Of a DNA stretch of 64,000 nt, positions 7,027 through 63,008 are shown one piece after another. The notes below the pieces were generated by a model. That model worked only from the letters and a program-made list of their open reading frames with translations. It was not told where the DNA came from and did not search any database. Position numbers and translations under genes: made by a program. The stretch is from positions 35,334,784-35,398,783 of the forward strand of contig NC_092640.1 in NCBI RefSeq assembly GCF_039555335.1, written 5' to 3'. Within the stretch, counting starts at the first letter, position 1; every line of letters starts with the position of its first letter. This DNA comes from Amphiura filiformis (Eukaryota; Echinodermata; Ophiuroidea; Amphilepidida; Amphiuridae).

Positions 7027-7062
7027 GAGTTACTGACATTGAAGTCGACAAATCGTAATACA

Positions 7063-7441: not shown

Positions 7442-7639
7442 CATTGTCCATTCATTTCAGATCAGCCCAGCAAACACAAAACATTTTCGATATCATTTGC
7501 AAAAGTTGCCAGAAAACGTTTAAATGTCGGGTTATATAAAGGGTATAAAACGTTTTCATAACATTCAAAAACGGTTTTGATAACTTACTGCAAATATTCT
7601 AACATAATGTTATGTGTTGAAAAATATTTGGCAAAAAAG

Positions 7640-20112: not shown

Positions 20113-20225
20113 TGACTTAAATTCACGGCTCTTTTCCTAAAGCGCATGACAAAAGCTGAAACGAAAAGCTGCGAAAATCATGGCATACCGGGGTACACTC
20201 GACAACTACTTCAAAGGCAAAAAGA

Positions 20226-20970: not shown

Positions 20971-21559
20971 TCCATTATGGATTCTGGTAATGGCATTTGA
21001 AATTCACACTCCCTGCGAGGAAGATGAAAGTCATTCATATTCATATTTTATTTCCATAAAAATCATTACATTACATTTCTTTACATTACATCAAAAATAT
21101 TCAAACACGATACAAATGGAGGAAAGGGCTGGAAGACCAAAAAGGACTGAAAGTTAGCCTTTCCCTAAAATCAACAAATGAAATTAGCAAAACAAAGCAA
21201 CTTTACCAAACATAAAATGATAACCAAAATAAAAGACAAGGGACGGGGAGGTGCTCGAGGAAAAGATTAATTACACTAAGAGATAAGTTTTTTTTAAAAT
21301 TCACTGCGCAAATGTTTGACAGATTTTGAAGCTTTCTGATTTTTATCTAAAGAATTCCAAAGGATGGGACCTCTTGTACGTATGGCATGATCAGAATAAC
21401 ATGGCAAACAATGATTTACAGGGTTTCTTATGGTTCTGGTTCTGGTTCTGGTTCAGGTTAAGTCGGAATCACAGTCAAGTTGCATCTTCTCCAACATTCT
21501 TAGAAGATTTGGGTGGTCAATGTGCCGTGTGTGTCTCTCGTAACTCGCGGAAGAATAAA

Positions 21560-26392: not shown

Positions 26393-29300
26393 GTGAGTAT
26401 GTCTTATATTTGCCAATAAAAAACAATAGCCTCAGACCAGGCTTCCCGTAGTACTAGTGTGCATCATTGCGTCTAGACCTAGTTCACCACGTAAACTTAT
26501 GGCTCAAAATTCGGACCGCTCGCCAATAAGTTTACTGCTTTCTATGTTTTGAAATTTGTTGACGTTTTAACGATCCCCGATTCCCGGTCGCTTATTTTAG
26601 CCGTGTCACGTCACATGCATGACGCTGGTGGGTACCAACCAAACTTCAGAAAAAAAAACACCTTGATCGCCGATAACGATGTGATATGGGACTTACATAG
26701 GATTTATACACAGAGATATTTCTTGCCAAAATTTGACCATTTCTAGGCAAGTTGGCCCTACTTTGTCTGTGTTATATGAAAAAGGACAGTCTTAAGTAAG
26801 TATAAGTGCAACGCTTTTGATGTTTTGATGTTTTGGGAGACTGGGAGTGTTCAGAACAAAAAAATGATGGAGCCTATTCTTGACTGTGTAATATTCACCA
26901 GTTGCCGTGCGGTAACAGTCTTATACGATGGACAGATAGTATCAGTTTGTGAATGAGGACATCGTATAAGTTCCTTGTACTAGTCTAGACCCGTCACGTA
27001 TTTTACAAATTTGGACGCAAGTGAAGTGTCAGATGGCTGATCAAGTATTTTGCGTGCATGTCACATGCATGTGGACGCAGACAAAATTTCTAAATTCAAT
27101 CATTAATTGATGTTAAAATAAGAAATTTATATTCTTTTACATTTTTAAAATAATAAAAGCCCCAAAATTTTGATCCACATCCACCTGCCTAAGAATTGAA
27201 ATAAATTCTGCAATATTTATAAATGCGACTCATCACATCAAAACCAACCACTTCGCGACTGGCTTCATTGGCAGATATGAAAGAAGATGAGAAAATATAA
27301 AGAAAATAAAAAGAAATTTGAGCTTGTTTTGACTCATAAAATATTTTTACTGTACCTGACTTCAACTTGATAAGTTATTTTATAATGTAAAAAGGTGTCA
27401 TTTTAAAGCTAAATAATTAGGGGTTCATTCATATATTTTCATGACTAAGCGGTTGTTTATGCCCGAGGGCCGCTTGCGGCCGAGGGCATAAACAACTTCG
27501 TTTAGTCATGAAAATATACTGAATGAACCCCTTTCATATACCAGAACATTTTGTGATTCTTATTTCATCAAAATAATGACAAAAGATAACAAGTACATCA
27601 TAAAAAACAATGAATTTCCTTCGTTTTCTTTACCCTGAGATCGCACATCCGGACCACCGGGCATAAACGCTGTTTATGCCCGGCTCTCGACCAATCACGC
27701 GCGCCGTTATATAGCGCGTATGTATGAACAGCAGTTCATTTAGGGGTTCATTCATATATTTTCATGACTAAACGGTTGTTTATGCCCTCGGGGCCGCTGT
27801 CATAACATTTTGTGGATCTTATTTCATCAAAATAATAACAAAAAATTACAAGTAACATTTATTTAAAAAAAAAAAAAAAATTTCCTTCATTTTCCCTACC
27901 TGGCGATCGCACATCCGGGACACTGGGCATAAACGCTGTTTATGCCCAGCTCTTGACCAATCATGCGTGCTGTTCCATAGCGTGTACATTGTACATGTAT
28001 GAACCTAGTGGGGCCAGAGCCAAAAATGGTCATCACTCAACCTAAAATTTAGAAATTGTTACAGGAGGCTAACTCCAGCGTGACTGACGGGACAGTTTGA
28101 TAGGCCTTTTTTTTAAAAATGACGCAAAAAAAAAAATCTACAAGACATATCCCAGACTGTTATACTCCAAGTCAAAGAGAACATGTCATAATTCAATTTA
28201 AAACACACAAGATGGAAACCAAGTGATTCAATGGCTGTATGGTTGCAAATTGAAATACAGCGTGACTGACGGACGCAAAAAACATCAATTTTTTAGAAAA
28301 AGTACATTCTTGCAAAACTCTATCTGTTCACAAGTGAGATTTATTGAAAAATGCTGTCAAAATTAAACATTGGTACATAAACTCTCAGTAAACATCATAC
28401 TCAAAAAATACGAAGCTGAGATTTTTATACCTGGGCTCGCCAAAGTCGTGACTGACGGGACGTGACTGACGGGACACTTTTTGAACATTTTTACAGTGTT
28501 CTTTAGAACAATGGCGAATTGCTCAAATATACTTTGTGGGATTTATTTTCACACAGAAATTACAAACAACATCTAATCATGATGAAATATTACCTTAAAC
28601 ATCATTTGAGGCCTCTCAAGCAAGGGAGTCAACTTCAAACAAGCAACTATATCCAGTAGGGGAGATTGGGGTTAGTTGCAACACTGGGTAAGTTGAAACA
28701 TTGTATTTTTTTCTGACACAAAAAATTAATTTGGTAAAACACTGGCACCTAGTAATAGGTATTAGTAAGGGTCATCCACCAAATTAGCAACAGCACTGAT
28801 GCCCCACCAGTGTTGGCTTGGGAAAGGAATATCTGTTTTTTTGACTTGCTGACTAATTTTTATACCCCTCAGAAAAGATGCGTTATCTCCATGTTGTTTG
28901 AAGATTCAGGGGATTATTTTTTGAGTATCATAAGCACTAGTAGTAAGTCCCAGAATAAGTAAAAATAAAAGTTTTACTGTATTTCTTATTTTGTGTAATG
29001 AACTTTGAAATTTAAAAATAGGCATCGGGGTTAGTTGAAACTTTTGAGGTGGGGTTAGTTGAAACGTGAAAATCGCATAGAAAAATATGGTTAAAAATTT
29101 GACTTTTTAACATGTTTACCATTTCTTCAATATTGCTTTAATATGGTTAAAAAGCAATAATACAAGCAAAAAGTGCACACAGAAAGTACATTTTATAATA
29201 TTTTAGGCTTCTCATATTTTTTGTCCATGGTGACACTCGTCACCTTGTGTCCAAAGTATTGACCAGCGCTCCCACATATTTATTTATTCATTTTTTCACA

Positions 29301-32300
29301 CTGATTGTATGTTAAAGGGTGCCTTCAAGGGAAGTATAACCCTAACAACACAATAATAATTATTTTGAAATTTTTACAAGCCATGTTTCAACTAACCCCA
29401 CCCTATGTTTCAACTTACCCCAGGGGTGGGGTTAGTTGAAACTACCCCTTTCAAATTTTCAAATTGGATTATATGAATAATCATAAGCAGGTCCAATAAA
29501 ATTTAAGGCTGTATTTGTAGCATGTATGTATATGTTTATACTGATATGGTTAGTGTTTCTTGAAAGTAATCGGTTTGGGTTAAAAAGACGATTTTGTGAA
29601 AAATGTTTCAACTAACCCCAATCTCCCCTACCCATAAAAATGATCAAATTCTAGAGTTTACAATGGTTTGACTGCCAGGTGGAATTTTAATCGTCAAAAT
29701 GAGCATTAAATCTTTTTTTTTTGGCCAAAATTTAGTGCAGAATATGAATCTGAAGTAAAAAACTGAAAATTTCCGACTTAAAAATTTCCCCCCATTAGAT
29801 TGTACATGGTAAGAATGCTAAAACGTGACTGATGGACACATTTTAACATGGAATATCTTCTATACTAAATGTCAGTGAACAATTTTGCATAATTGTTTGT
29901 ATGAGGCAAGTCAGATAGAAGATAGATTTAACTTGAAACCAACAATTTATATACTATGACAGAAAATATGCAACTTTTTCATGTTTTTTCGTGACTGACG
30001 GGACATTTCAATACCCATATTTGAAGGCCATAGTATACATTTATGATGTTACTGATGGGTTTAAATTTTGTTCTGGAATTGCAGTAAAGATATCAAAGCT
30101 GATATTAAACCACTTTAATACATACTTTTGTGCATGTACCCTAGGATCAGCAATACTCAGTCATAAGATCAGCAATTTCCTGCAAAATTAGGGATACACA
30201 AACCTGTTCCAATTCCCCAAACTTCAAATTGTCATAAAAATGTATAAAATTATGTGAGGCAAAAAACAAAAGTGGTTTCTGAAAGCTCTTTTAGTCTACT
30301 TTGCAGGAAACAATAACTTGGAAGCATTGAATGAACTTTTAAAATTCATGCAAATGTACCATTTCTGTGGAGTTAGCCAGGAGTGAATTTCTCCTCTGGT
30401 TTAATAGACCACTTACCAAAGATTATGAATCGGAAAAAAAAGAGTAAAATTTTGGAATACAAGCAATAAAATACACACGTAGCGCCCTCTTGATGTTACT
30501 GCATATTTAAAAATGATAGGATTTTTTTGTTTATGGTATTATAAAGGTCTTCTGTATAGACAATTTCAGCACTAAAAAAAATGTCAGTGGACTTTGCAAA
30601 AATAAAGAAATAAATTAAAATATGTGTAAAATTCCGTCCCGCCACATTTTGAGGTGATTTTTTTACGTTCCGGAAGGGACGAAAAAAAAAAAATTGTAGT
30701 CAAAACTTTCCAAAATATCAACTATTATGGTAATAAACATTCCTGAGTACATAAAAATTGAATTCATCAACTTTGCTAGGCTCAAAACCATTTTAACTTC
30801 TTCTATTTCAGGCCTTTTGTGGTAGGATGCCAGCAATAATGCTCTTTTCAGGGTCTTTGGTGCAAAACACGGCGCTGCCACATTTTGAGATGATTTTTTT
30901 AAGTTCAGGAATCTATGAAAAATTTCTTTCTCAGTCAATATTTTGCAATAATTTTTCATTGGAAGTGAAAGAAAAAAACAATTTTGTCAGTTTTAAAGTG
31001 AATCAATTGCTTTTTTTTCTTGATTTTGACATAGTGGACAAAATTCCGTCCAGCCACATTCCGTCCCGCCACATTGACATGATTTAAAAAAATTAATGAA
31101 CGTACTTTCAAGAAGGGGGTGAATTTTATAATTCCTCCCATAACAAAAGAAGGATAGTTGAAGTTAATACCAATGTTAGAAACAAATGTTTTATCCCAGT
31201 ACTTTTGATAAAAATTCAACAAATGTACTGTGTTCACAAATACATGAAGTTTATCATTCCGTCCCGCCACATTAATGAATTTGTGTTACCGTGGCAACGT
31301 GTTGATTCTTAGGACTATTTTTCTTGTGTGTGAATGTAGTCTGTAACTTACTTGTTTATATTAAGAACATAAAGAATCCATAAAATAAACAGGTACAGGG
31401 CTACAATTTAAAAGGCCTATCAAAATTCCGTCCCGCCACAAACGGGAATTTTGGCTCTGGCCCAGTGTTCATATCTCCATTTTCATTTCTGCCGCAAGGT
31501 GGTCTGTTTTGATGTACTGATGGGTCACAAATGCAATGTCAGGAAATCATGCACTTTTTGCATGCTTTCCGTAATGATCGCTGTTTGATGGGGAAGTCCA
31601 AATTGATGCAATTGACTTTGTTTACAAGCATGCTGGACTAACGACGTGCGGTTAATGTGTATTTAATTATTTCACAACCTGACAATATTCAGTTTTTAAT
31701 GTTTCAATTTCATTTTCTGATTTAAATAATCTCTGTTTTCTTTATTTCCTTATTATTGTTACGGTGAATAAAAGCAATTTTAAGACAAAATCTAAATGAT
31801 AGGGGTGTGATTTTGGGTAATTTTGTGCCGGATACCCGGCACATTTTTTAAGCGGGTAACGGGTACCGAAATTGCAAAGAAAAAAAAAAAAAAAAAATTT
31901 TTGTTCAATTTTTTTTGGGGGTTTTGTAGTGTCTCTGGACCTAGACCTAAATGCTTACACAGGATCATTCATGGTTGACCTAAAAAAAAATAAATTGAAT
32001 TTTGCACATTGTTTTGTGAAAATTGATACATAGTTTTCATGTCATGTACTCTATTAATTAATGATATCAAAATGCATTCAAATTCAATGCAATTTGATAT
32101 CATTAATTAATAGAGTATGACATGAAAACTATGTATCAATTTTCATATTAAAAACACAAAACAATGTGCAAAATTCAATTTTTTTTTTTAGGTCAACCAT
32201 GAATGATCCTAGCATTTAGGTCTAGGTCCAGAGATTACAAAACTCAAAAAAAAAAAAAAAAAATTTTTTTAAATTTGGGTATCCGGGCAGGGAATTTCCT

Positions 32301-35300: not shown

Positions 35301-38300
35301 AGGCACTAGTATCAGTGATCCAAGTGAAAGTGAAAAAAAATTAGGAATCATTAATAATTTTTTTTAGATTTTCTAATTTAGCAAACATTTGTAACTTGCA
35401 AAAAATATAATGTGGTTGGGAAATGGAAGGCTGGTACATAGAAATTATTACGTTTTAAATCAGCCATGACTGTTGTGATAGAATTCGAGCTTCGTATGTG
35501 ATATGATCAAGCTATTAATGAGTCGTTTGTCGCTAATATTGATTTTGAAATTAAGCCAATAATAATTAAACTCCTTTGTGTTTTATTGTTTTGAGCAACA
35601 CTAAAATGACCATATCTTTGGAACCATTATCCAATTATGATGCAGTTTTGATCAAAATAAAGCTCTGATATAGTGATAATGGCATATAATGAGCACAAAA
35701 ACTGAATTTTGATTTTGCTTGACAAACAACGATCATTTTGCTTTGCATCCCATATTTTTCATTGTCTGACAAAACTAGGTAACAGGTGGTTGGAGCTGCT
35801 GATTGAAGTTCAATTTCAGTGCTTTTACTCCATGCATAATTTTTGTAACATCTATATTGCCATTATGTACTTTGACGTTCTGCATAGAATAATTGTTTTT
35901 TTGTACATTGTGTATGTTGTATGCACACATCAGAAACTGGGACTACATGTATGCTGGGACTCGCTGTCTAGATGCATGTTTAGCTGCCTTGACTCAGTGA
36001 TGTATGAATTGTGCTATGGTCATTTTAACATGATTAATGACTACATGTACTCTTATGGTTTGCTGTCAATATTATGTGTAAAGTGAACAATATTTTTTGG
36101 TTGCCGATCCATGCTCGTCCTGGCAGGTTTTTCTCCGGGAGTCCGGGTGTTCCGGTTTTCATCCTCCTCCAAAAATCGGACCTCTGAGTTTGGTTGCCGA
36201 TTCATGCTTGTCCTTGCAGGTTTCCCTCCGGGTGCTCTGTTTTTTTCCCTCCTAAAATCGGACCTCTTGCCATATCCATGTCCCATCATATTCAGTTAGC
36301 ATCCCTTTAATTTAGTAGCCTCTGAGCACTATTGCTTTGCTTGGCTTTGGTTGAAGTTATATTTTTATAAATTAATAAATTAGTAATTGTTGTCTTTCTT
36401 CTTATTTATTTGCAGAGAAATGGAGAAGAAAGAGGATGGTCCACGCGATCAACAGCTTCAAGGTATAGCATGTACATGGAAAGGATTCCTAAGCACCACA
36501 TCCCCACATACGTACAATGTGTTAAGCACAAAAAACGTTATCAAGATATCCCTAGGAAGCAAGCATAGTGCTTTCCTCACCGACGAACACACCGTTTATT
36601 GTTTTGGTTCCGGAGAATTTGGCCAACTCGGACATAAAAAATTCACCGATGTTACAAAAGAGCCGATTTTAGTACAAGAACTGAAAGGGGAAAACGTTGT
36701 GGATGTGGTCTGCGGTGCGAATCACACAGGAGTTGTGTGTTCCGATGGAATCGTGTTCTGCTGGGGGGATTCAAGTAGTGGACAATGTGGGACTGGGGAC
36801 ACAGAAAAGATTCACACCCCGCGACAAGTTGAGATTTGCGACACAGATGCCGACCCACTTGTGACGCATATAGCGTGCGGAGATACGCACACCCTAGCAT
36901 TGACCCATCATGGTGAGGTTTGGTCATGGGGTACAGGACCACAGCTGGGGCTCGGCACTGGGACTACCCCTGTGCTATCACCTCGTAAAATCGACGCGTT
37001 AGTCGGTCGTAAGGTGCTTCAAATTTCATGCGGTGCAATACATAGTATAGCAATTGTTCAGAAAATAAAACATGCGAAGATCGTGAAACGGCAGCCTGGG
37101 GACGATGATGAGTCGGAATCGGGAACATTATCATCGACGAACGAAACATTCACTATGATTGAAGAGGATGATGCAGTTATTATCACCGACACACGAGTCA
37201 AAGACACTATATCAATTGATGAAGTCCCTTCTATAAGAAGCATGTCACCGGATAGTATTGACATGGAGGCGAAAAAGCTGCATGAACAAAATGGCCGTAT
37301 ACGTGACGGTGGGGAAGAAGGTTATGCGTCATCGGAAGGCAGCCAAGGAACATATACATTAAATCAAGACATCAAAAGTATGGGCGATTCGGATATCGTG
37401 GCAAATGGTGATGTCAAGACGATAACATCCGAAGATCATGCTGACGGACCTGTGGGGTCCGAAGACGAAACCTGCATCAAAAATGGCGCTAAACCTCAAC
37501 CCTCGGCATTACCTAGTAGTTCAGCAACTATGGAATATTTTGCCCAGTTGAAACCCAAACGCCCCACATCGTTATCGTCGAAAGAGCGATCATGGCTAGT
37601 CTACCGACGGCGGTGTCGTCCAAACTTGAGAAGCTGATGAGCCCTAGGTTAAGTTTAGTGCTCGGTTTGTGGCAAGGGCACGAGTTGAAGGTGTTGAAGG
37701 AAAGCGAAGGGGACGATGAAGACGAGGAGGAGCCTGGAAGTAGCTTGGAAAGATCGCAGACCAAAGTGAAGTCACCGTTAGAAGGTTTCTTGGATGAGCA
37801 CGGTGCACCAACAGATGTGTGGACTTGGGGGAAAGGAGCTAGTGGTCAGCTGGGACAAGGAGATCCTCTTGACAAGTAAGTGATCATGTGACCTGATCTA
37901 ATCCAATCAGGGCCCTTTTTTTGGGGGGGAGGGAAGTAATGGTGGACTGCAGCCTGGTGGACTAAATAATATCAATTTTAGAGTTTAGGGATATAATATT
38001 TATTAGGTTAGGGTAAGGGTTAGAATTATAGGGTTGTATGAAGTGTACCCAAGGGTGAAATTAAGTGGGAGACGCAGCCCTCGAATTAACCCACAGCACC
38101 GAGGGTGCCCACCCCCATTGCCGCAATGACCTCAAAATATGTCCTTTACCGACGGCAGTTACTTGCCGTGCCCCTAAATGAAGTTGCTGTGGGTGCCCTA
38201 GCCGGCCAGCCTTGTTGCCCCTTCAATATAAAATCATTAACAAGTACTGGTTACTGACCCCCCAAAATTGTGGAAAATTAAATCGAAAATCTTGAACACG

Positions 38301-41300
38301 ATCGCTATTTTGAGCATCGTAATCACAGAATTGATCGTAACCCAGCTATCAATCACAGTATACACAATAGTTTGTTGTCAATTAATATTCATTACCCCTA
38401 CGTAAGCTTACATATTCAGCCAATCACATCGGCTTTTATACATTATCTGGTTGCTAGAAATCTGACTTCATTTTCTCGATTGGTCAGAGAAATACCTTCA
38501 GCCTACTATCGACCAATCAGAAACGCTGTTAGTAACTATTAAAGCTACCTCGTGTCATGAACAAAATCCGAGCACTGGGCAAATCAGTTATTGATCTCTC
38601 GATTAGCAAACATTGACTTCCCATTGCAAACCGATGGCGATCCCCCTTCCGGTATCGTCTTATCTTGTACATGTGAGCCCATCTCTAGATATGATTTGCC
38701 CGAAATAGTTTTTATCCCGGCGAATTTGATCAATATTATTACCAAAGTTACAGCTGTTTCATCGCTGTTTCGAGTCAGTTTTGCAGCTCAGAACTAGGGA
38801 TCGCAAAATTTAAGTAAATTAAACTGTTGATTTTTGATTGCTTTGTATTATTTAAGCAGTTTTTTTGAGCAAGCAGGTTAGTTTTAGTGTAAAGTTGAGA
38901 GTCAAATTTTACTTTGGTGTCGAATTCAGCTGACAGCAATGCATCTATTCGCTTTTGAAAAATTGCCTTGGTGCCCTTCTCAAATTTCAACAGTTGCCTT
39001 GATGCCCTTTTGAAATATTACAAATTGCCGTGCTGCCTTGCCTTTTCAGTGAAAATCCAAGGCAATTATCAACTTGCCCTAAAAAAGTTGCCGTGCCCCT
39101 TCAGATCCTTAATTTGAGGGCTGGGGAGACGGGAGCCCTCTGGCCCCAGAAACTCTGAAATGGCCCCTGGTTCCATCTCAATTGTAGTTGACCAGGGGAC
39201 ACTTTTCTCACAAAACTGGCCCCTGGATAGTGAACCAAAAATATCAAATTCAAAGCAACTAGCTTATTTAACTCATCCAGCACATCTTTATTTTTACTGG
39301 CCCCTTGGTAATTGGAAATGGCCCCTGGTTCCTCCCAATCTTGGTCAACCAGGGGCTACTTTTTTGCCAAAGTGGCCCCTGGTTCAAGCTCTCTTATTTT
39401 CACCCTTGAGTGTACCGTACTACCGTTACTCACCTGTGCATTAGGAACATGGGAGGAGTGGTGAAATGAAACTGACTGTGCATCATTTTGGTCCAGTATG
39501 CTCAGGGACGTATACGTACAGTGCATTTTTTAGAGGGACTATAGGGACTTTTAGAGTCTGTCCACTGATCTGCTTCATAAAGGATTTACCTAGACAATTT
39601 GCTCTAGGACAGGGTGAATTTTGGCTCCAAGGAAGATGCACTGGGCAATGTTTGTTGATGTCCTGCCCAGTACATTGTGCTGTCTTGGTAAAAGATTCAA
39701 TACTGGTCTGAAATTCTTGCCTGGTAAAAGCCATCTGAGAAGGCACTCTGCCCTTCCCCACAAGTATGCTCACGGCATGTACACGGCACGTAAAATGCAT
39801 GCAATATTAATACGAGGAACAGTCATGTAATTTTTGTAACAATTAAAATGTTTAAAAACAGGATTATTTTAATATTTAGAATGATTTAGTGGTATGATAA
39901 ATTTATTAAATTAGGTTCAACATCGGTATGGTACGGAAATTATTTTTGCGCTCAAAATATGTCATACTGGGTTCAGCCTTCGGGTTCACCCATTACGACA
40001 CTTCGCGCATAATAATTTCTCGTACCATACCGATGGTTCACCTAATGAGTAATGACTATGAATTTATGTAAATTTGGAAACAAACAAACAAACAAATAGA
40101 CAAATACACTAATTTCTTGACTCTTGTAGCCTAGAATTTTCATTTTGAAGTTGTTCAAATATCTAAAAACGAGGAAAAAGTAGGTGCAAGATTCAAAAAG
40201 AAATTACAAGGGTCAATTCTCATCATGCATACATCCAATCAATTATAAACTTGAGTTACCATGTTATTGAATTTGTCTGTGATTGTAGACTTTCATTAGC
40301 ATTTATTCATGTGTTGGTAAGCTACCCTGCCATAAGCAGTAATGAGAGCATCAGACATGCATGTGTCTTGTCCTACTTTTAGTACACTCAGTCTATGTAT
40401 GTACTCGGCTTAGGGATGTGCAATATGTACATTATCTCAAATTATGTTATCTATTAAATTACAAGGCAATCACCCAGGCTAGAAGTAGCATTTGAATATG
40501 TTAAAATAAAATGCCTGATACTTTGGCAAATTCTTCTTTTCATTATGGTGTGTGCAAGATACTGTTAATCCTAGTAAAAATAAAAAATAAAAGCATGTTT
40601 GAAACAGTGGTTTTAACAAAATGTTTATTTTAAAATGTGCTGCCCATAGGCTATCTTAAGAATTACTGAACCAATACAGAGCTTGTTTGTACACATTTTT
40701 TAAATGCATTTTTCATGCTGATTCCAAATATGGTCATTCAAAAGCATACTTCTGAATTTTTTAATTTTTGAAAGAAAAAACTTGTCGTCTGCAGTCGACA
40801 CTCGCGTGCAGAGGTTTTAAAAGGTTAGAACTTTATGATTATGAAATTATGATGGTTAATGACTTTGGTAGATGCATACATGTGGCAAAATATTACATGT
40901 AGGAGTTGAGGGTACAAAATAATGAAATGGCCTATTTGTATTTAGGGTTAGGAGGATATAAGTATCAGTGTCCAAATTACGCACAGAGATAGACCATTAA
41001 CCCTAACCCTACCCGTGGTTTTTGTGCTATCGGAAGGGAAAGAAGGAACGAAAAAGGAGAGAAGATGAAGAAGAAAGTCACTTGGCACCCCCGGGATTCG
41101 AACCTGGGACCCTCGCATGCCACGCAGAAGATCCCCAGCATGTAGCTACACAGGTGACGTTGGCCCAGCCAACGATTCCCTGGGTATATATGACTTTGGC
41201 TGATTGCGTCATCAAGTCACCTGGAATGCATGCACGCAGAGCGCTTTTAATAGTGAGCTTTAGTGAGTCCTAGTTCTGTTAGGGTTAAGAAGGCATATAG

Positions 41301-44300
41301 GGGAAACATGCATGTAGCTTAACCCTAACCCTACTCGTGGTTTTTGTGCTATCGGAAGGGAAAGAAGGAACGAAAAGGAGAGAAGATGAAGAAGAAAGTC
41401 ACTTGGCACCCCGAATCGAAACCTGGGACCCCTCGCATGCCACGCAGAAGATCCCCAGCATGTAGCTACACAGGTGACGTTGGCCCAGCCAACGATTCCC
41501 TGGGTATATAATATATACTATATATGACTTGGTCTGATTGCGTCATCAAGTCCCGTGGAATGCATGCACGCAGAGCGTTTTTAATAGTGAGCTTTAGTGA
41601 GTCCTAGTTCTGTTAGGGTTAAGAATGAAATAACTAGTTGACTAATGGTATACCTACATTGGGCTATTCCAGAAAATAGGTGCACACCCCCTATAGAGGA
41701 GTAAATTTTCAAATAAAGAAATGTCCGGATTTCCAAGTCTGCTTTCTGAAAACGACTGGATTTCCAGTTGCCAATGTTACTGGAAAAAGCTTGGAAATCC
41801 AATCAAATGAAGGAAAAATCACGGAAATGTTGAAAATGTGCTCTCAAATTGAGGATTTCTGATTTTAAACTATTTTTCTGCCGGATTTTTTTGCCTTTGA
41901 ACACTTTGAAAGTCTGGATTTCCAACAGTCACGACTGGACAAAAAGTCCGGATATGGGTAAAGTCAAAAATAATGGCACCGTTTGGTTTTTGATGCCTGC
42001 TGTGCAAATGAAAAAGACCAGCAAAAAAATTCATCTTTCAAAAAGTGTGTTATGATTTTCTCTTTAACCACAGCAATTTGTAGTGTCATAGCTGTCATGT
42101 AAAAAATAATATGCCCAATTTTCTTCCCCATAGGGTCAGGAGTGTTACACTTTAGCGTGACAAGAAAAGAGGTACTTGTTTTTTAATCATGCACTTAAAA
42201 AATATACAAGTTGCAAAGTGTTGCATGGGTTTTCATGGCATTTTGTGAAGTGTCTGCTATTATTAAGTACCAAATTCTTTCATATTAGTCGCTTAATAGT
42301 CTACTTAGGAACATGTGAAGACTACATGGTGCGAAAAATAAAATATGTTCCAAAAATCACTTCTCGCCAGATTGTGTAGCATTGTAAGGTTATGATGACA
42401 GTAATAATCTATTTCAGTCTGTTTAAAGTAAAAGCAACATTTAGGCCAAACTTGGAAAAAATAAAACTTGCATGATATCAAAACCGTTTTCTTTTTAGAG
42501 CGGGTTGAAAAGAGAAATTCTGTCTCGTCAGGAGTGTTACATCAGAATTCAACATGATATTTTTCATACACCAAGTTGGCAATATTCATACATTACTTTT
42601 TATTTTATTAGTGCATTGGGATAGGAACTCAAAAACAAGAAAAATATTTGCCATTGCTTGAACATGTTTGCTACAGCTATCTAAATAGTCAATGTCAGGA
42701 GTGTTACACAGAATTAATTAATTGGCAATAATTCAAATTTCTGAAGAAATTACCAGTCTGTTGGTGTTCTTTTAGCCCTGAAACTATATTCCTGAAGCCA
42801 AACTGCTGCAATCATGATGTAAAGACCTTCATATTCAAGAAATATGTACATAAAAACATGGTTATCATAGCTCGACCAAAATGTTACACTCCTGACAATC
42901 AATTGTAAGTAATATAGGCTCAACAATAAAATTGAACTAATGTAATTCAATTTTTTGCCCCTTTTTGAGATAGCCATAGATAGTGTCACCAAAAAATTAC
43001 AAAAACTACTTTAGAAAATGTGATTTGCAAATTTATATATTTGAGGCTATACAGTACGTATAGCAAAGTGTCAGGAGCAGGCTGCGACAAATCGCCTGTC
43101 CGATAGCCCGGGGCAATCACATTTTTTGTCGGGCAATTAAAACTCTGAAGAGCTGTGCCCGATCGGGCAAGTCTAAATTTAAACCAATTAAAGCTTGATG
43201 ATTTAAAATGGAGTATTTCTGTCCAACTTGGCATGTTCACAGAAGTAAAAAACGTCAAAACAAAGTAGAAAACCTCTTGAAATGCATGAATGGAACTCAA
43301 ATTTCGCTAGGCACTCGTATCCCACACCAGACTTGCAGACGTGTATATATGCTAATGAACATCATGCCATTATGTGACGTATTGGAAGTTTGGCCAATAA
43401 GCCCAATCGGCATTGGAAGTTTGCAATGCATTGTGGGACAGTTTTTGCAGTTTTAGGACATTTTGTCCTTTGACCTATCGGGAAAATTGCTGTAATTATT
43501 AATAATTTATTTATTATTGTCATAATGTTATCATTAAAAATATTTAAATAATTAATTTATTTAATAATAATGTTTTTTAAGTTTGTTTTTATTCTAGTAA
43601 CACGTTTTAAATTATATTTTATACGCACAAAACCCGAATTTTTCTGAATTTTCCAGATAGGTCAAAGGGCAAAGTGTCCTAAAAAAACCGGAAGTTACAA
43701 TAGCGATTTGGCTTATTATAGAACCTGTTTCGTGCAGGTTTCGTTCAAATATCATGACGTCAGCTGGCCATGTATTTGCATATGATTGAGATTGAGATGT
43801 ACTAGTGGTTGGCGAAATACGTAAATAGCAGTGACTTTACTGACAAAATTTCACATAAAATTCACATTATTTTCCACATAAGAAACAAACAGTGAAATAA
43901 TTGAATGAAATGTTCATTTTTTATGCATTTCATGAATACTCATTTATTTATCAACTTAACTGAGAAAAGTATTGGATTTCCGTAAGAATGAAACTGCCAA
44001 ATTCGCACACTTACGCACTGCACTGCATGATGAGTACGGTATGTGACTTTGTCGACAATTGTTGCCGGGAATATGGGTTAATTTCGGGCAATTTGGGGCA
44101 ACCAATTTTTGGATATTGCCTGCCCGATCGGGCAAGCTAAAAAATAAAATTTGTCGCGGCCTGGTCAGGAGTGTTACAAAAACATGTAAGCTGGGCTCGA
44201 AAAACAAAAATGAACGTAAATCACCTAAATTTTGTGCCATAGAGGGCCATAGATGTTGTCAACAAAAATTACAAAGACTGTTTTAGAAAATGTAGTTTAT

Positions 44301-47300: not shown

Positions 47301-49900
47301 CTTGGTTGGGTTTTAGTAAATGTACATGACCGGGCTAAGCTTGAAACGATGCTTTATTACACTGGTATAAACAAGATGGAATTATGTTGCCTTATACTAT
47401 CTCATTCTGTCTACTAACCTTTGTATGTATACATTATAAATTATCTTACACCATGGCATGTTTGGAGTGGCATACTCAGGGAAATTTTGCCAAGGGGCAC
47501 TCTAAGAAATTTTAAGAATGAAAAAAAAAGTGGAGTTGAGATCAATTTAATAGTGGTTCAGGACTCAAAATACATGATTCAGTTGATCATATAGTGATAC
47601 TGGGATTCATTAGCGCCAATCCAGCTTGAAATGTGTGGGGTGGGGCAATCGACCTGAATTGTCAAAAAAATGCCCCCCCCCCGGATTGATGCCTATGCTG
47701 GGACATCTACATGAACCTGTCATTTTGGTCCAAATTTTGGTGACAAAATAGGTAATCCATAAAATTTAATTAAAAAACACTAAAAACAATCAGACATTTC
47801 ATACAGTACAGACTATAATTGCAGTGTAATATTTCCTGGCAAGTCAAATTGTAGCTGTAAATGCTATATATGCCACCAGATTGTTTATAAAAATCACATG
47901 ACTGAAAATTCAGTACGGTACATATCAAACACGGTCTATGTCAAAATGCCACAGCTTTTATGCTAATACTAATTAACAGGACGACTCCACCACTGATCTA
48001 CATAATATGATACAATGCAAATTATCATACACGTTGTCCTCACTGAGGTCATTCAATGGTGGTTTAAAATATGTATCATATAAGAGATACAGGAGTAGGG
48101 TTGAAAGTATTAAAGGGGCACTGTGTGATATTGTATTATGAATAAGTTTTCTTACATTTCATATTACTCATTTTCACAGTTAAGTGCTTGGATTGGTTGC
48201 AGAACCTATCATAAATTGCAAAAGAATATTTGAAAAAGTATGTTTTTATTAAAAGTAATGATCAAAATATTTGTATAAAGCTCAGAAAATGTATATCCCG
48301 TGGCTTGAAATCACAAATCATTGATTTCCAAGCGATGAGACTATGAGAATGTATGAAATGATGGTGTTAGGCAGGTTATGACATGCATTAAAATAATAAC
48401 AATTGTTAGTATTCAGGTTTTGTTAAAATATTTATTTAAATACTTTTTTCCATATTTTTATTAATTTTAAAATTGTCTTAATTAAAAATAAATGAAAATG
48501 CTGTTTCTGTACTCTTCTGTGTTTTCCGTATTTTCCCCCGTTTTCTGTAAACAGAAAACGTGCCACCTTGGCTAAAAACAAACTATATAACATGTTTTAG
48601 TATTCCCTCTTGAACCCAACTCAAATCAGAGACGCATGTCTACAATGCTCCGATACCACCGGGCACGTGCTTGTATTATCACAATGCCCACCACGCCCAC
48701 TATTCTTCCACCGAGATGAAATCGGAGACTGACAATGTCTTCTGGCGGTGGCTTTTAACCCATTCTCTGCTAATGTTATGGGGAATTAATGTAGCATAAT
48801 GTCATAATTGTACATTGCAAAATTAATAAGATTTGTTATAAGGTCTTAAAATGTCACTGCCCCTACGTGAATGTTGGTACTCACTTAAAAGATGCAAGTA
48901 TCAGCAATTAAACTTCTTTTTATGGGTTTTTACTCTTCATTGGTGTTTTCTTTTAAAACACTGCAGGACGTTTATAATGCCAACAACTGCAAAAGCTGGT
49001 TTGAAGTAGCCACTCAAAACTGCATGGTCGTTGGGACAAAATTGGTATATCCATATCATAAATTTGCTAATATTTATTCAGGTTAGGTGTTATGTTACCT
49101 ATGGAAATTGACTGTGTCATTGTTGGGGTTGTGAAAAGATGTTAGATTGAGAAATGTGCAGTGGTACTACCATTATTAAGCCTGAATATGTGGATATGGA
49201 CTCAATTTTTAAAAATAAATTATTTCTCCTCAATTTAGTTTCTTAGTTTATATGGATATGATTTATATAAATGATAGAAATATTTGTTGTGTTGTTCTCA
49301 TCATTAATAATATTATATTGAGAGTACTGGTATTAGGAAAAAGGAAATAGTTTGGGCAAAAAAGTTGATTTTTTTATTTATGAATGTGGAGACATCTGTT
49401 AAAACCCTTTCTCACATTTTTTTCTTTCCCCTTATGTGCTAGCTTCATTTTGGCCCTTTTTTGAAAAGACATAGGCCCGAACCCCGAGCCTCCCCACATA
49501 AATAAATGAGATATTTTACTTTCTAAATGCAATAAGCAAAGTAATACTACCAGTATAATACTACCAGTATTAGGAATACCCTGTTGCAACCACAAATGTT
49601 ATTGTATATACTGGGTTTCATATTACCATCTGTATCCTGGTATAAAATTCATGTGTCATCATTTCTGTAATTGAAAGATTTAAAGATGTACAATGGCGTA
49701 TTATGTCAAAAATATACTATGTTTTCTCCTCTTTTAAAATTAAAATGTTTTTTTGTTCACTAATATAGTGTAATCACACACTTCTTCCATCCATACAAAT
49801 ATCTTTTACAGATATTTTTTGCAAAATTAATGCGTATATTGCAAAAGGAATACACACAGCAGCTTCTTTGAGACATACCTCTTTGCCTCATCTCAAGCAA

Positions 49901-49940
<40 letters not shown>

Positions 49941-52900
49941 GAAACAGGATTAACTCTGCTTAGAGATGTACATGTATCCTATACTACATAGATTTAATCT
50001 GAGTTTGGTACTTTGATCATTAAGATATATGTTTATTATTACAGTATCATCAAAATTATATGCCATTTTGTTGCCATTTATTTCTTGCAGACCTCAGCCG
50101 CTACCAATCAAACAGCTCAGCAACAAGAACATCATTCGCATAGTCGCAGGTACGAACCACAATCTAGCCATCACCAGCAACGGACAGGTGTACTCATGGG
50201 GTGGGAATACGGATGGACAGCTAGGACATACAGGACAACTAGTACCAAAAAAGAATTAAGGTATTAAATAAAGCTGAGACAAGCACAGATTGTTTGTTCA
50301 AAATTAATTTTGTCGAGGACAGTTTGAATTAAAGCCACGCAAGTATATTATGTAAACAATTTTATTGCATTTTGTTAAAAATTGATGGCGTGAATACTAA
50401 AGAAAACAATTTTACAAAGAGGTAATCCACACAAGCTGTACTTTATCAGTCTATAATACCAAATTTATTAATTTGTTTTAAACAATTCATTGATGCTAGC
50501 ACTGGTAGCATCCATTACTGCTTGTCGACATGAAGTCTGGAAAGGTGACCTCAATGCTGTGGGTGGTCTTCCTGTGCTAATGAATGGGACAGCATTATCC
50601 GTGGCTAATTTTTAGACCAATATTTTGGATTTTTTGGACTTTTTTCTAAGTTTGTGAGAGCATAACAAGACTCTCCGTCGATGGATTTTTTTATTGCAGT
50701 CGGTAAATATATTTTAAGTTAAGTTTTTCATAACATATTAAAAAGGCAGAGACCCCTGCTGTATAATAATTTAGTTAGTTTTGAGTAACTATGATGAATT
50801 GATATATAGACGAATCCAATTTCACGCATTCCTACTCCTCAATGGCAGCCATAGCTGCGACGGGGACCCAGCTATCTCACCTAAAATGTGAAATGATGCG
50901 GCCTTGGAGGGTATTTTAAACTGCATTCTATCACCCGTGTTACATATAGACAAAAGAATGATGACAGTTTACAACACAAAAGAATCTAACATCAAATTTT
51001 AAGCGGGTTTAATCCACCCAATTGGGCACTCACAACACCTGTTTGGTGCATGCGGGGAACCAAATATGGCCGACCAAATCCTGACCATGACTTGGCTCGT
51101 TGGATTCGTCTATATGTAAATGATTATGCTTTTAAACTTGATGGCATTAACACTTCAGGAAACTTTACTTTTTCGTTTTCCTTACAGATGCCCAACAATG
51201 CATTGGTATGGGATGCAGCAGCAGGGACTACACATACATTACTAGTAGCTGATGGTAATAGCTTCCAGCCTGATGTGTACTATTTAGGAAAACAACCAAG
51301 GTATAGTAGGGAAATTTATTGATGGTATTCTTTGGTTCGCCTCAAGTTCGGTTGTGTAGTAATGCTTTTTCATGCTTTCGTTGCAAGCGTGCCGACAAAT
51401 TGACCTTGTATATGTGGGTGTACGCTTTGTGCGATTAACTTAATGTACGCGATTTGATACTACGACCAGCAAAATACGCCTACGTCACTACCGAATTTGA
51501 GGCGAAGCAATGTATAGGGAGAGGAGGGGGAAGGATAGAAGAGAGGAAGGTGACAACACATTCATTATTAGGCTATTCCATTTAAAATCCACACTACCCC
51601 TGTGGAAGATTTAGCTAAAGTCTGCCATAGAGGGAGTATTAATTTTGAATAGAATAGACAAGTGGGTAACTTCCATTTGTAATGCTCACTCCTGTTGTGG
51701 AAGGTATAGGTAAAGCCATTATACAGGGGGAGTATGGGTTTCAAAGTGATTACCTCTGGCCAATTACATTTGAAAAACATACTCCCCCTGTGGAAGATAT
51801 TTCCAAAATCTGCCACAGGGTAGTGTGGATTTCATCTGGAAAAGAACATGGTAATTAGCTTCCAGCCTGATGTATACATACTATCTAGGAAAACCAAGGT
51901 ATAGGCCTTGTTTCCCTGCTGATCAGTTATGTCAAAAAAATTGTTTGATTGGTGTAACCCGACCGACCCTAAAAGTAAGCCCTAGACTAAAATAATAAAA
52001 AAATAAAGAAATTAAAAAAAATAAAATAAATTTATAAAAAAGAAGAAAAAAAGTTCCAATGCCTTTATCGAACGCAATTTACAGCTTAAACAGTAAAATA
52101 AAAATCCCGACCTACCTACCCAAATTTTTTTTATGTTACTCTAATCAAACAATTTATTTTTTGAGGCCTTGAAATAGAATTTTCTAGTTTTGGAATTGAT
52201 ACTGTGTGACATATGAATACAATGGTTGATTAGACACTAAAATGGACATCATAAAAATGAAATTTGGCCATATTTGAATATAATAGATTAATATGATACT
52301 GACCTTGTGCCTACTTGTTACATCTGACAATTGAACAGGACAATAGATGACAACCTTAAAGCAAAGATCAAAATTTCTGCAAATTACCAAACAATCACAA
52401 TAGTGTCATAATAAGGCCAAAAAATAAAATGTTGTGTTGCCCTCAAGTGGGAAAAATGGAAAGTTGGGTCGGTCGTTCAATTTTTTTTTTTACACCTTCA
52501 GTTTTTAAAAATCCCCACAAATATTAAATAATGCTTCTTCTATTAGGGACATGTCAATTTTGACTACTGGATACTTCGTCGTCCGTATTCCATAGTGGCG
52601 TATAGTGGGCGCCGCTGAATAAACAACTTTTCGAGAAAATCGGGTTTGAAGAAATGCCAATTTAAAATCGAGTTGTGTAAATCAGACATTCATTATATTT
52701 TGTAAATGATGTGAAATTTCTGTAGTAAACTAAATAGATTTTATTGTTATATATTTTCAAAAGAAATAAATACATACTATTGCTGGCAAACTGACAATAA
52801 AACTATACGTCACTATGGAAAACGATCAAAACGCAATACCCTAACCTTACGTTAACCGTGACGCCACCTCGGTCGCCGTGTAATCCCTATGGCGTTATTT

Positions 52901-55900
52901 TTCGTCAAGTTAGTATTCCATAGTGGCGATAGGTCCGATCTTACGCGTCACGCCACTATGACATACGATGTTTTTCATTTTGCCGATATTTCATAATTAT
53001 AAAATGTGTATAAAAAGGGGCGTATGGTCGATATGCCACTATGGAATACAAAAATGTCACTTTGTAACTATACGCCACATTTAATTAATTAATTACTAAT
53101 TAATTAGCTAATTATGACTGATGAGACTTAGAAAAAATGAAAGAGAACATCATTAAAAACATATGTGCCAATTTTAAAAAAAATGACCAAAAATCACTAT
53201 ACGCCACTATGGAATACAGCCGACGACTTGTTAGATGATCAATTTCAGACTAGTCTTTCAGTGAAATATTAATTTTAAGTGAAAAACAGTGATTTATTTG
53301 GGGTCGATCGCTTAGGGCAACACAACTTTTTTTTGGGGGGGGGCAAGATCTGATCCATCTGAAGGAAAATAATGTAGTAATTGGGAAATTGAAATACAAG
53401 CACCCAAACAACTATAAAATGCATTAAATGACAACTCAAACCTTTGAATCCAAAGGAATACAGGTGTGTCACACTAACAAATTGTAAATTAAAAAACAGC
53501 AAAAATGTGACACAACATCCAGTAGTAGGGAGTAAAAACAAATAAATACACAAAGTTAAAAACTCATAGTTTCTAAAAGACAAAAAACTTTTTCATGGGA
53601 GAGTGACTAGCTGTATAGTAAGAGAGGAGACCAGCTTCAAACTTGATGACCATGCAAGAAGTGAATATGCAGTGAAATATCAACATAAAAATCAACATTT
53701 GGTTTTGAAAAGCAAAACTTGGAAAATTTATTAAGCAAATAAATTCTTTTGGATATATACAAATCTTAGAATTTTTACCACTATGTGAATATAACCAAGA
53801 AGTAAGAAACCCAGTATGCTGTAAGGCACATTTTGTCTTGCTATCCATTGATATAAGCTCTTGAGGTCAGTGAGTTCATTGCTTTGAGTATTGTATAAAG
53901 TGTGGACATAAGTATTCAACCATTTAAGAATTGTGCTTGCTCTAACTAACTCTTAACAATCTCAGGAGAGTCTGCCAACACTAACAATATGAATGGTTTG
54001 CTGAAATGCTAAAAATTGAGAATTTAATGCTCATTTTGCCAACTGACCCAAATTTTGCATCGTCCAGATCATGAGGATTTTTTTTTAAATTATTTTATTT
54101 TTGGTATAATTATATGCTTATAAAAGCCTACATTTTTTAGGACAAAAGTAGATATATTTTGACGGAAAAAAACATGGGCGAAGCAAGTGAAAATGTGCAG
54201 GTTTACAGATTTGTGTGATTTTTAAGGTTATTTAAAAAAACCCAAAAAACCACTTGTCACCTTAAAGGTTAAGTAACAGAGTGGCGAAGGTATTCTACAC
54301 AAAATATGAAAAGCTACTAGATAAAATTAAAAAGCAATAACAGTAAAACAACAATAAACAAGGGGGCTCAAATGGTACCTGTTCTACTTTAACCTGTACA
54401 TGTTACATAAAATATAAAATTGGTAGCTGAAAGCATTGTTCAATTGGCTGTAATGACATGTGAGGTATAAAAATAAATGAATGGCACCATCTCTTACTGT
54501 TTGTTCACACCTTGCCTTATTGCAATCACTTACATCAGGATTTCATCAACCGCACAAAATTGCAATCATATGGCATTTACACATTGGAGATAGCTGTCTA
54601 TGATCCCGTTTATACAGAGCCTGAAGTCGACTTTGACTTTGAACTCGACTTCATTTTTGTGTAAACAGGGTTGTCGTTATTTGAACTCAACTTCAGAAAT
54701 CTACTTCAAATGACGACCCGGAGCAACATTTGTTGAATTCAATGTCAACTGGAATGTCAACTGCAGTGTAAATGATGAACACGTAATTTGAAGTCGACTT
54801 CATAATAGGTATTTGAAACATGAGCAAGTGGTGGTATAAAAGTCGAATTCCCAATTTGTTTTGAAGTCAACTAAACACCCTGTCAAGAAATAATGCTAAT
54901 CCGTAGTTGCAGGTTGAATTTGATGTCGCAACTAAAGTTGACTTCTCTCTGTGTAAATTGGATCTATGGCAGGCCAAATCAGGAAAAACTTGTTTTTTTT
55001 TTTGTGTGTGTCTGTGACTGTGTTTGGACTTGTCACATGTGATCTGTTTGTTAACCCTCCCTCTCATTATCTGATTTTGTATTGTTTACAGTTTACAAGA
55101 GTTGAGAAGTGAAGGTCGCACACAGGGGACTCCAGACAGCCCATCATTGAAAGATAAAGAGGGCAAAAGAAGATCAGCATCCAGTATTGCAAAGGGGCCA
55201 ACCATCAAGTATGCTGCCAGGGCTAAACAACCAGAAAAACTGGCATTTATAAGAAAGGTAACATTGTAAACATTCTACAGGGGTATGAAATTTCAGATTT
55301 TAAGCTGATTTCAGCTTTTTTTATTTGCTAACATTTACGTGTTTTCTTTTATTTTCAGCCCATATGTGACATGATCAAGGGAAATGAGTCGGATGTCGCT
55401 AATATTGATTTTGAGATATTGGCAAAGAAAGTGTTAAAATTCTTTTGTTTTATATTGTTTTCAGCGATTGATAAATTTACATAACTTCACAAAGAAAAGT
55501 CAGTATCAACATGGGGTTTTCAGTTTCTGAAAGCTCTAAATGTCCTCTTTAGAAACATGTGTAAAACTCATTTTCGTCCAGGGCCGACATGTGACTCATT
55601 CCCCTTGATCATGTCACATATTTGACGTTTTTACCCTGCTTTTACGCTGTTTTTCAGCTTTTTTTTAGTAATTCTCAGCTTTTTTGGTCTGAGGCCTCTC
55701 ACACCCCTGATTCTATTAAAGCCATAATGTGCAATCTTATAATATGAAATTGGTTAATTTATTTCAAACCTAATTTTTCTGGCATATTTGTAACATTTAC
55801 AAATGAACCAACCAATACCTAAATAGAATCAGCCAAATTTATTGTGTTTGTGGGTGAACAGAGCAGTTTGGAAAAAGTCATGTTATGACTTTAAATCCCC

Positions 55901-57665: not shown

Positions 57666-57736
<71 letters not shown>

Positions 57737-60700
57737 GATTTAGTTAGTATATTTATTGAAAAGCTTGCTCTTCTGCAACATTGGATCCTCCATCTTGAAA
57801 TGTCAAGAATTTAAAGTTCTATGATCTATCATAACATTAATCTATAAATTAGGTGATCTTGTTTTGCAGTTTGATGTGGTAGTATATGCTTCTTTAAAAG
57901 CATACAAAGGTGCACTTGTACTTTGAGTGCATGCTTGCGATTTGAACCGGCGCCCAATGAAAATGTGCGGTGATAAAATAAAAATAACATAATTTGTGCA
58001 ATTTTGCCAGTTTGCCAGCAAAGTTTATCTGCCCATCTAGTGCCACCTGTAATGAATGTAAACATACTTATGAGACCATTTTTGAACCATAATGTAATAA
58101 TATAATAATATAATAAAGACCAGTGATTACACTGACAAAATTTCATCGATATAGCTCTTTCACTTCTTGGTGATTTCAAAAACCTTTGGATATCCCCTCA
58201 TACATCTGGTGAGAACAGTAATCAGTTGCTTATGTTCACTCTCTATTTCAGAATGGTTGGGTCCAGGCCATAGCTGCAGCGGGAGACACATGCGCATGCA
58301 TAGTGGACAAAAACGTTTCCGGGTTCACATCTATCTTGCAAGAATTAACAGCCAGTGAAAGACTAATTCATAACCAGTTATCAACGATCAAGTCTACCAT
58401 TCTGAAGACTCTGCAAACTCCAGGTGATTTGTTCTTAAAATCTGAGACTAAGTTAAAAAGAAAAGTTTGTATGTGATGGCAACTCCTCACAGTCTGTGAT
58501 TGGTTAATATTGCATAAAAGGATGGTTGATTCATTTGGTACCTTTATCGGAGAAAAGGAATGACAGAAAATTGCAAATGATGTTGGTACTGTTAGAAGGC
58601 AAAAAGCAGCATGTATGAATTTCAAATGGGGTTACCTGAATGAGTAACTCCTTTTGAAATCTACTCCCCCCCGCATTGGACGCATCAACATCTTAGCGTG
58701 TGTGCATTATTGAATCAAATTTCTCCCTCAACAAGTAATACAAAAAGCCTGTAAGTGTGGCTTTGCCAATTTGTAATCCTGCTGTACTTTTATTCATGTA
58801 TTTTGAGTAGCACACTACAATAAATTATTGGACTTGCCTGTCGTCTATCACAGGGTAGAGAAAATAACTATAAACTAGTGGGCAAAAGTTAAGTACCACC
58901 ATAAAAACTTCCCTTATTCTAAAATAAACGAAAGTTGTTTACATTTTCATGTCACCTGCTGCACGTACTGCAAGATGGTGCAAGTATTGCGGACTAGATA
59001 TACGCATGCAATTTGCTACGTGCACCTCTACAAGCATGTTGCGCGTTATCAATACACATGCGATTGTCCAATCAGATTAAGTTTTTTTAACTAGACCATT
59101 CCCACTGACTAAGAATATAGCATTTATAAGCATTACGTAACAAGTAACCAATTTAGCTTCTCTTTTTCTCTCTTTACTTTAGGGAACAAACCAAAAGATC
59201 GGTGACGTCCTATAAACGAAACTAGTTTCGTTTAGGGGAGGGGGTAAAAATACTCGATTACGTTTGTACAAAAACATCGGTCTGAAGAATGTGTCATTAT
59301 TATTATTATGTCAAAATTTTCAACATTTCATTATTACGTTTCTGGCAGGGAGGGAGGGGTTCGGCTGAGAAAGAAACTAGTTACGTTTATAGGACGTCAT
59401 CGATCTTTTGGTTTGTTCCCTTACAGAAACCCACAAAGCTGTAGAAAACACCATCTACAGTGAGCCATTCAGGCTTATCCTAGACTATTTCAGCATGGTA
59501 TCAAGCGGGGTAGGACAGAGCAGTGCCCAACTCACCAACATCGTACAGAAGAACCAATACTTGGTAGACCTGGTCATGCTGAAGAATGCTACTGAGTATG
59601 TTGCTTTGTACGAGCAGTATGCAGTGCAAGTGTGCAATTTTCTGACAATCGGAGGTTTTGCCCATATTGGAAAGATATGCAGGTAAATGTGATGTGTTTT
59701 TTTTACGGATTGAAGTTTCTAGGTTGGTGTGTTTAAATTTACCAAGTCATCGTGTATAGAGGTGCAAATGGGCTATTCCATTTAAAATCCACACTACCCC
59801 TGTGGAATATTTAGCTAAAGTCTTCCACAGAGGGAGTATAAGTTTTGAATAGAATAGAATTGGGTAACTTCTATTATAAATACTCACTCCAGTTGTGGAA
59901 GATATATGTAAAGCCATAATACAGGGGGAGTATGGGTTTCAAAATGATGAACCCTGATCCGATTACATTTGAAAATGTACCCCCTGTGGAAGATATTTCC
60001 AAAATCTCCCACAGGGGTAGTGTGGATTTCAACTGGAATAGCCCAATGATGAAGACAGAATCTGACATTCAGCAAGAAAGTTGGATAAGACTGAGGTGTG
60101 AACCCTCGTTTATGCGGATATCTTGCTTCAGATATTCTTACGGATGCAGGGAGTACCACATTTTGGTGCCAAATTTTTGGACTTAAATTTCATCATATGT
60201 TAAAAATTAACAATGTAAAGAATATAAAAAGTTTAATAAATGGAATGAAACTGATGTAAGGAATCCAATTAATTAAGTTATTGATAGAATTTGGGAAAAA
60301 GTGCCTGACTTTGAGAGAATCACAAAAAATGGATTTTCCACCAAAATATTTTCAACCACCTAATCTTCACTTAATTTATGTCCTTGGCTCTGCCTCAATT
60401 CTATTAATGAACTCCTAATTTGCACTTAGACATGCAAGCAGCAAGAGCTATTATGATAAGGTTCGCTTATTTGCGATGCGATCAAGCAAAATGAGTCTGA
60501 TGTTGATCAAAATCAAAATTTAGTTTTCAAATTCATTACATGAGCCATTAAAGCTTTATTTTGCTGAAAACCCCATCATAATTAGACTTATCGTTCCTGC
60601 GATATGGTCATTTTAGTGTTGCTCAGAACAATAAAATATAAAGGAAGTTGAATTATAAAATTGGCTATATCTCAAAATCAATATTCCCGACATTTGACTC

Positions 60701-63008: not shown

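Follow-up and report, generated by a model that had tools for sequence, protein, structure and literature searches.

The design of short repeated words inside small mobile elements of this window (the whole 64-kb stretch of DNA that was analysed) is largely real and recurrent, with known precedents, and its hAT cases are classical. The words are probably arrays of binding sites for the transposase of each family, carried by non-autonomous DNA transposons; duplication would have extended the arrays inward and selection preserved them. Arrays of transposase-binding sites had also been inferred in a sequence-only reading of this DNA, and as candidate sites they fit best, because the words are alike while most spacers are not, because words stand at the TIRs and because the same layout is found in two hATs. 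The part that exceeds the textbook layout is the arrays of elements A, N and B, with their spacing of about 190 bp.

Many small mobile elements are present in the window, which has a G+C content of 36% and whose genes and LINE suggest DNA of animal type. Its other contents are as follows.
2602-5918, satellite array with a 34-bp unit
9773-11955, satellite array with a 29-bp unit
13718-14520, satellite array with a 287-bp unit
20461-20972, satellite array with a 34-bp unit
21560-24884, LINE (PHD finger, endonuclease, reverse transcriptase split over two frames)
36387-37879, gene with RCC1 repeats (weak Alsin_RLD match, E 9e-5, under the curated cut-off)

The 34-bp units of 2602-5918 and 20461-20972 are alike. 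Across the window, no match was returned by Rfam at the gathering threshold, and a tRNA search found none. The word-bearing elements (unstranded) and the two words of element A (plus strand) are listed here.
28011..31463, element A, non-autonomous TIR element; TIR GGGCCAGAGCCAAAA, flanks AGTG/AGTG; 2474 bp when its nested element is left out
28079..28094, plus strand, left word of A (CGTGACTGACGGGACA); further copies at 28261 (variant), 28447, 28461, 29824 (variant) and 29990
31426..31443, plus strand, right word of A (TTCCGTCCCGCCACA); further copies at 30632, 31044, 31059 and 31257, and a weak one at 30868
28656..29631, element N, nested in A; TIR GTAGGGGAGATTGGGGTTAGTTG, which includes the word GGGGTTAGTTGAAAC; eight words in both orientations; flanks CCA/CCA (or TA)
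38050..39408, H1, hAT MITE; TSD AGTGTACC, TIR CAAGGGTGAAA; 302 bp without its nested hAT
38075..39123, H1-nest, hAT; TSD GGGAGACG, TIR CAGCCCTCGAATTAA
41661..44941, element B; TIR GGGCTATTCCAGAAAATAG..., flanks ATT/ATT; six words GTCAGGAGTGTTACA, one split by a nested hAT; 2187 bp without that hAT
43078..44163, B-nest, hAT inside a word of B; TSD GTCAGGAG, TIR CAGGCTGCGACAAAT
47013..47304, H2, hAT MITE; TSD GTTGGGTT, TIR CA(T/A)GCCTCGAAATAA; 292 bp
52577..53225, element C; TIR CGTCG.C.GTATTCCATAGTGGCGTATAGTG, which includes the word CCATAGTGGCGTATAG; seven words; flanks ACTT/ACTT
54602..54964, element D; TIR GATCC..TTTA.ACAGAG; palindromic word GAAGTCGACTTC in eight variants; flanks TAT/TAT

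All ten words named in the sequence-only reading were located where it had placed them. Near-matches of every one (10/10) are enriched in its own element for the length of that element: GTGACTGACGGGACA occurs four times inside and nowhere outside its named element (up to three mismatches), GGGGTTAGTTGAAAC eight times inside and twice outside, and the weakest, CGGGCAATT, three times inside and seven outside (up to one mismatch). A de novo search took the commonest 12-mer of each element (up to one mismatch, both strands, nested inserts removed), with 30 first-order shuffles per element as controls. Recurrence beat the shuffles in seven of the nine listed elements, with 4–8 copies against shuffle maxima of 2–4, namely six against three in A, eight against three in N, six against two in H1, six against four in B, four against two in H2, six against two in C and four against two in D. 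The result was weak in H1-nest (three copies, shuffle maximum two), and there was no excess in B-nest (two copies, shuffle maximum three), so that a design claimed for at least nine elements stands for seven by this search and is weak in the other two. On these shuffle comparisons, chance was rejected as the source of the words. A scan of the whole window gave 20 word clusters, including satellites and simple repeats, against none in each of five shuffles. Nested inverted repeats at 6342-7572, with AAATGTCGGGTT five times, are a possible further word-bearing element.

Words within or adjoining the terminal repeat, noted before for several elements, are seen in N, C, D, H1, H2 and at the right end of A. 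Other parts of the earlier description hold in narrower form. Exact copies on both strands exist for three of the ten words, one word is palindromic, and two others are found on both strands when mismatches are allowed, so that the claim of both orientations holds for some words only; words are inverted as well as direct in N, B and C, and both words of A have a single orientation at the near-match thresholds used. Most families do have their own word, but H1 and H2 carry a related one, so not all words are private, and the elements, described as unrelated-looking, include relatives among the hATs. Without the nested inserts, the interiors of up to 3.4 kb through which words were said to run come to 2.5 and 2.2 kb.

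The contrast between words and spacers is sharp within elements. In all eight arrays examined, pairwise identity was 0.70–0.90 for words, 0.21–0.38 for flanking 20-bp bins and 0.25–0.28 for background; word positions were picked for similarity, which makes word identity high by construction, and the informative feature is the sharp drop at the edges. In A, B and N the words are 79–90% alike while most spacers are near background. When 25 spacer pairs from these three elements were compared in two orientations (50 comparisons), three exceeded z = 3: two spacers of B (z = 15; 76% identity over 105 columns), two in the right arm of A (z = 4.0) and a further pair in B (z = 3.3). Such matches indicate that word-plus-spacer units were duplicated at least locally; being only 3 of 50, they argue weakly for duplication as a general route. 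One right-arm word of A has decayed though its flank stayed similar.

Conservation between copies could be compared in one near-complete pair, that of element E, which was absent from the earlier list.
59770..60044, element E; TIR GGGCTATTCCA, common to B; flanks AAT/AAT
51570..51844, second copy of E; 87.7% identity over 276 columns; right end decayed, limit approximate

In this MITE family the word CCCCTGTGGAAGAT occurs in opposed pairs 23 bp apart, with the outer words 184 or 188 bp apart. Between the two copies, words differ at 6 of 83 positions (7.2%), spacers at 19 of 146 (13.0%) and ends at 2 of 40. The word-versus-spacer contrast lies in the predicted direction and is not significant (Fisher one-sided p = 0.13; a single pair, 8 gap columns left out). 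Pieces related to E lie at 19947-20113 and 60754-60927; they were aligned with each other and are uncounted in that test. Element ends and word pairs gave no matches in viral and prokaryotic contig collections. PIF/Harbinger elements have a 3-bp TSD of TWA type, and this class was rejected for B and E, whose 3-bp flanks (ATT and AAT) have the wrong letters.

H1, H1-nest, B-nest and H2 are hAT transposons, judged by their perfect 8-bp TSDs (4/4) and CA... TIRs. TIRs of hATs start C/TA...G, and the starts here are, respectively, CAAGGGTG, CAGCCCTC, CAGGC(T/C)GC and CA(T/A)GCCTC, with one mismatch per 14 between ends. The boundaries drawn earlier for these four coincide exactly with the 8-bp duplications. 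A hAT assignment was rejected for A, B, N, C and D, whose flanks at the earlier boundaries share only 3–4 bp and give no 8-bp TSD; the flank repeats (AGTG, ATT, CCA, ACTT and TAT, respectively) are so short that chance may give them. A scan for TSDs with TIRs returned 11 hits, of which six were accepted as hATs and five discounted, against 0–2 hits in each of ten shuffles; its filter dropped two-letter duplications, which puts H2 outside its hits, and the TSD of H2 was read from the flanks. Three hAT-like stretches with perfect 8-bp duplications (31800-32359, 56401-57550 and 62307-62814) are without repeated internal words, among the 12 TIR elements tested for repeated 12-mers.

Subterminal repeats are clear in H1 and H2 and weaker, as short motifs, in H1-nest and B-nest, where five motifs were tried per element and several do not rise above the shuffle maximum. 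In H1-nest, TTGCC or its complement is found 12 times (shuffle mean 3.4, maximum 8), ten lying no more than about 160 bp from the ends and two in the centre, and TGCCC shows no excess (10, shuffle maximum 10). CGGGCAA occurs four times in B-nest against a shuffle maximum of two, at 53, 87, 1008 and 1052 of 1086 and always within about 95 bp of an end; TTGCC shows no excess there (9, shuffle maximum 9). The motifs of both elements lie mostly near the ends, which is the classical subterminal layout. At 43070-44171 the hAT is inserted exactly within a word of B, and its 8-bp duplication belongs to that word.

H1 and H2 are, judging by their alignment, diverged relatives, with an overall score of 200 against 94 ± 10 for shuffles and identities of 72/96 in words and 110/184 in spacers. 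H1 has seven TGGCCCCTGGTT-like words and H2 seven TGGCTCCTGGTC-like words, arranged in each as two +/-/+ triplets and one more, with triplet steps of 31/25 and 30/24 in H1 and 30/26 and 29/26 in H2 (range 24–31 bp). Two or more triplets arise in random layouts with a probability of about 0.0003 per element, under step limits set after inspection of the data. At one word position, C stands in all seven H1 words, and H2 has T in five of seven and G in two. The pair seem to be a natural case of concerted change of a putative binding site throughout an element. H2 and H1-nest have similar ends (CA..CCTCGAA.TAA) and different words, which suggests that ends and words can evolve independently.

The elements are likely to be non-autonomous, having TIRs and flanks and no coding capacity that could be seen, since a Pfam scan of 10 of the 71 open pieces gave only two sub-threshold matches (E 0.05 and 0.11). 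The longest open stretches are 109 aa in A and 106 aa in B. A scan in the window that covered 7 of 17 long frames and, of 71 short pieces, 10 revealed neither a hAT transposase nor an autonomous partner.

From these patterns we infer transposase binding, selection and, as the general route, growth by duplication. Each word would be a putative binding site for the DNA-binding domain of its family's own transposase, which in the hAT cases would be a BED zinc finger, by analogy with Hermes. Many words per element could raise the local concentration of transposase and make the pairing of the two ends easier. In the short hATs the words would fill the whole element, as such an element barely exceeds two subterminal zones. 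The arrays of A, B and N may have grown inward by duplication of units of about 170–200 bp with one word each, after which the spacers would have drifted and the words been kept, since only copies with good words would be mobilised.

The two arms of A bear on this history. Words at 28447 and 28461 in the left arm, and at 31044 and 31059 in the right, form head-to-tail doublets. The outermost left and right words both adjoin TTTGATAGGCCTTTT and, with 15 adjacent bases, align between the arms with a score of 37 (500 shuffles, 18.1 ± 3.0, maximum 36). Because the outermost words and their neighbouring bases are homologous, the left and right words of A appear to have diverged from a single word in once-inverted arms. 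The two arms may have a mirrored word layout, for which the matches are suggestive. With the shift left free, four of six sites match, which 635 of 5000 random layouts equal; with the shift fixed by TTTGATAGGCCTTTT, in a post hoc test, 2–4 of the five remaining sites match, as in 72–160 of 5000 random layouts depending on tolerance. When arms were compared in windows, z exceeded 3 in A only at 1-100 and 51-150 and in C only at the end; B passed this value at its end and in the window 651-750 (z = 3.6), and N at its end and over 301-450, a stretch with words in which z reaches 6.3. A Foldback or Galileo-type identity was rejected for A, since beyond about 100 bp no arm window exceeds z = 3 and most spacers are unrelated. 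Some 240 bp at 41703-41946 are found in the left end of B only, with several GGATTTCC-type words recognised by eye. CpG retention was also rejected as a general sign of constraint: it is high in A, where 24 of 39 CpGs fall within words that cover 8% of the length, and the pattern does not extend to the others (B 1/19, N 2/8, C 8/33).

With nested inserts removed and words less than 60 bp apart merged, successive intervals are 182, 193, 391 and 166 bp in the left arm of A, 420, 206 and 169 bp in its right arm, 392, 167, 190, 186 and 170 bp in B, and 362, 368 and 198 bp in N. Words in these three elements are thus about 190 bp, or twice that, apart, as assessed by tests that were designed after the intervals were known and with a post hoc period range and choice of elements. 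The intervals of C (217, 127, 118 and 148 bp) do not fit such a spacing, and D (170 and 103 bp), H1 and H2 are too short for testing it. Fitting the intervals to multiples of one period gave a best value of 186–193 for the combined sets; the fit with the best period at 190–193 is reached by at most 1 of 1000 random trials for A+B and A+B+N at every setting, and by 0–16 of 1000 for all eight arrays; for arrays taken singly, the random counts out of 3000 are 9 (B), 52 (A left), 133 (N) and 188 (A right). A phase-free test peaks at periods of 167–260 depending on the set, with 0 or 1 of 2000 random layouts reaching the combined sets and, singly, 21 (B), 123 (A left), 146 (N) and 541 (A right). 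The weak word of A at 30868 was counted in the phase-free and single-array fits and dropped from the interval list and from the combined-set counts out of 1000.

A spacing of about 190 bp resembles the nucleosome repeat length. It is conceivable, as a tentative idea to which we give limited credence, that these are nucleosome-spaced arrays of transposase sites, with one word per 190 bp or so serving recognition and folding in chromatin, and with the two forms in A forcing left-right pairing. Each linker or nucleosome of the chromatinised element would then present the same site, the transposase could recognise and fold its element in chromatin, and the diverged word forms of A, one per arm, would force the left end to pair with the right. 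Base composition around the words shows no clear nucleosome-type pattern, and no nucleosome-spaced array of transposase sites was found in the literature searched, a body that lacks most subscription papers.

The same spacing can be read in another way, with the words as remnants of satellite-like tandem repeats (monomers of about 190 bp), being the slowest-changing or last duplicated part and having no binding function. The regular spacing and the similar adjacent spacers in two places would follow from this, and oyster Helentron elements carry monomers of 140–180 bp (PMC7492417). We regard it as unlikely, since the words of A, B and N are 79–90% alike while most spacers are near background, N, B and C have direct as well as inverted words, and C has words without that spacing.

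Sites for host proteins (transcription, insulator or silencing factors) carried along by the elements would give the same pattern, and the patterns seen here do not name the binder. That most families have their own word, and that words lie within or adjoin the terminal repeat in N, C, D, H1, H2 and at the right end of A, is what would be expected of the family's own transposase, and it makes host-protein sites an improbable source. Homogenisation by repeated templated repair or gene conversion, also proposed in the sequence-only reading, would make likeness a matter of copying and not of function, and we do not favour it and consider it very improbable: the C common to all H1 words and the T in five of seven H2 words at one site, and the head-to-tail doublets in both arms of A, are compatible with it, but a shift in transposase specificity would equally produce the co-change, and identity drops nearly to background as soon as the word ends, whereas conversion tracts would normally include flanks.

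If the words are the transposase sites that we take them for, the DNA-binding specificity of many uncharacterised transposases could be had from sequence alone, and gene-less elements could be matched to their enzymes. The spacing of about 190 bp suggests a connection of transposon architecture with nucleosomes that can be tested. Most worth following are the long elements with words at this spacing and the concerted word change of H1 and H2.

Subterminal repeats are present in the hAT elements Tol2, Tag1 and Ac. A literature search by sequence string returned no transposon-related titles. BED domains of Hermes bind subterminal repeats, and about 70% of activity is left after mutation of the putative left-end BED sites (PMC10368747), which means that many subterminal words need not be essential. 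One subterminal motif is described as critical for binding by the Herves transposase, and as sufficient for it (PMC3143072). The hATs described here resemble Hermes and Herves in their 8-bp TSD, short TIR and several motif copies near the ends in both orientations. They differ in that the words here are longer, 9–16 bp as delimited in the sequence-only reading, against AAG(T/C) in Hermes, and in the two ordered +/-/+ triplets of H1 and H2, unlike either.

Among foldback-like elements of Drosophila, Galileo has internal repeats of about 210 bp, which its authors tie to secondary transposase sites; extra transposase-binding sites are stated for one Galileo, and the possession of multiple binding sites is viewed as convergent, perhaps favoured by selection for improved transposition (PMC3573991). 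Tetris has 220-bp repeats, for which extra transposase sites were proposed by analogy (PMC4079207). The spacing of about 190 bp resembles these repeats, whereas Galileo and Tetris have near-identical tandem units within long TIRs, and A, B and N have short TIRs and mostly unrelated spacers; the arms of A, unlike theirs, show only a trace of homology past the TIR. The oyster Helentron, a non-autonomous mobile element with satellite-like monomers of 140–180 bp (PMC7492417), has a similar repeat length inside a non-autonomous element; its whole monomers are alike, whereas here there are TIRs and TSDs and only the words are alike. SIRCs of Arabidopsis consist of 2–8 direct repeats of 10–29 bp with diverse DNA between them, and their authors place their origin in internal MITE structure and leave functions open (PMC10342631). 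A, B and N likewise have 2–8 direct repeats of 10–29 bp with diverse spacers. Unlike SIRCs, they have ends and flanking duplications, some words are also inverted (at least one copy in B and N), and the words of the long elements are spaced near 190 bp. Of what we found in print, these Arabidopsis SIRCs are the closest structural description.
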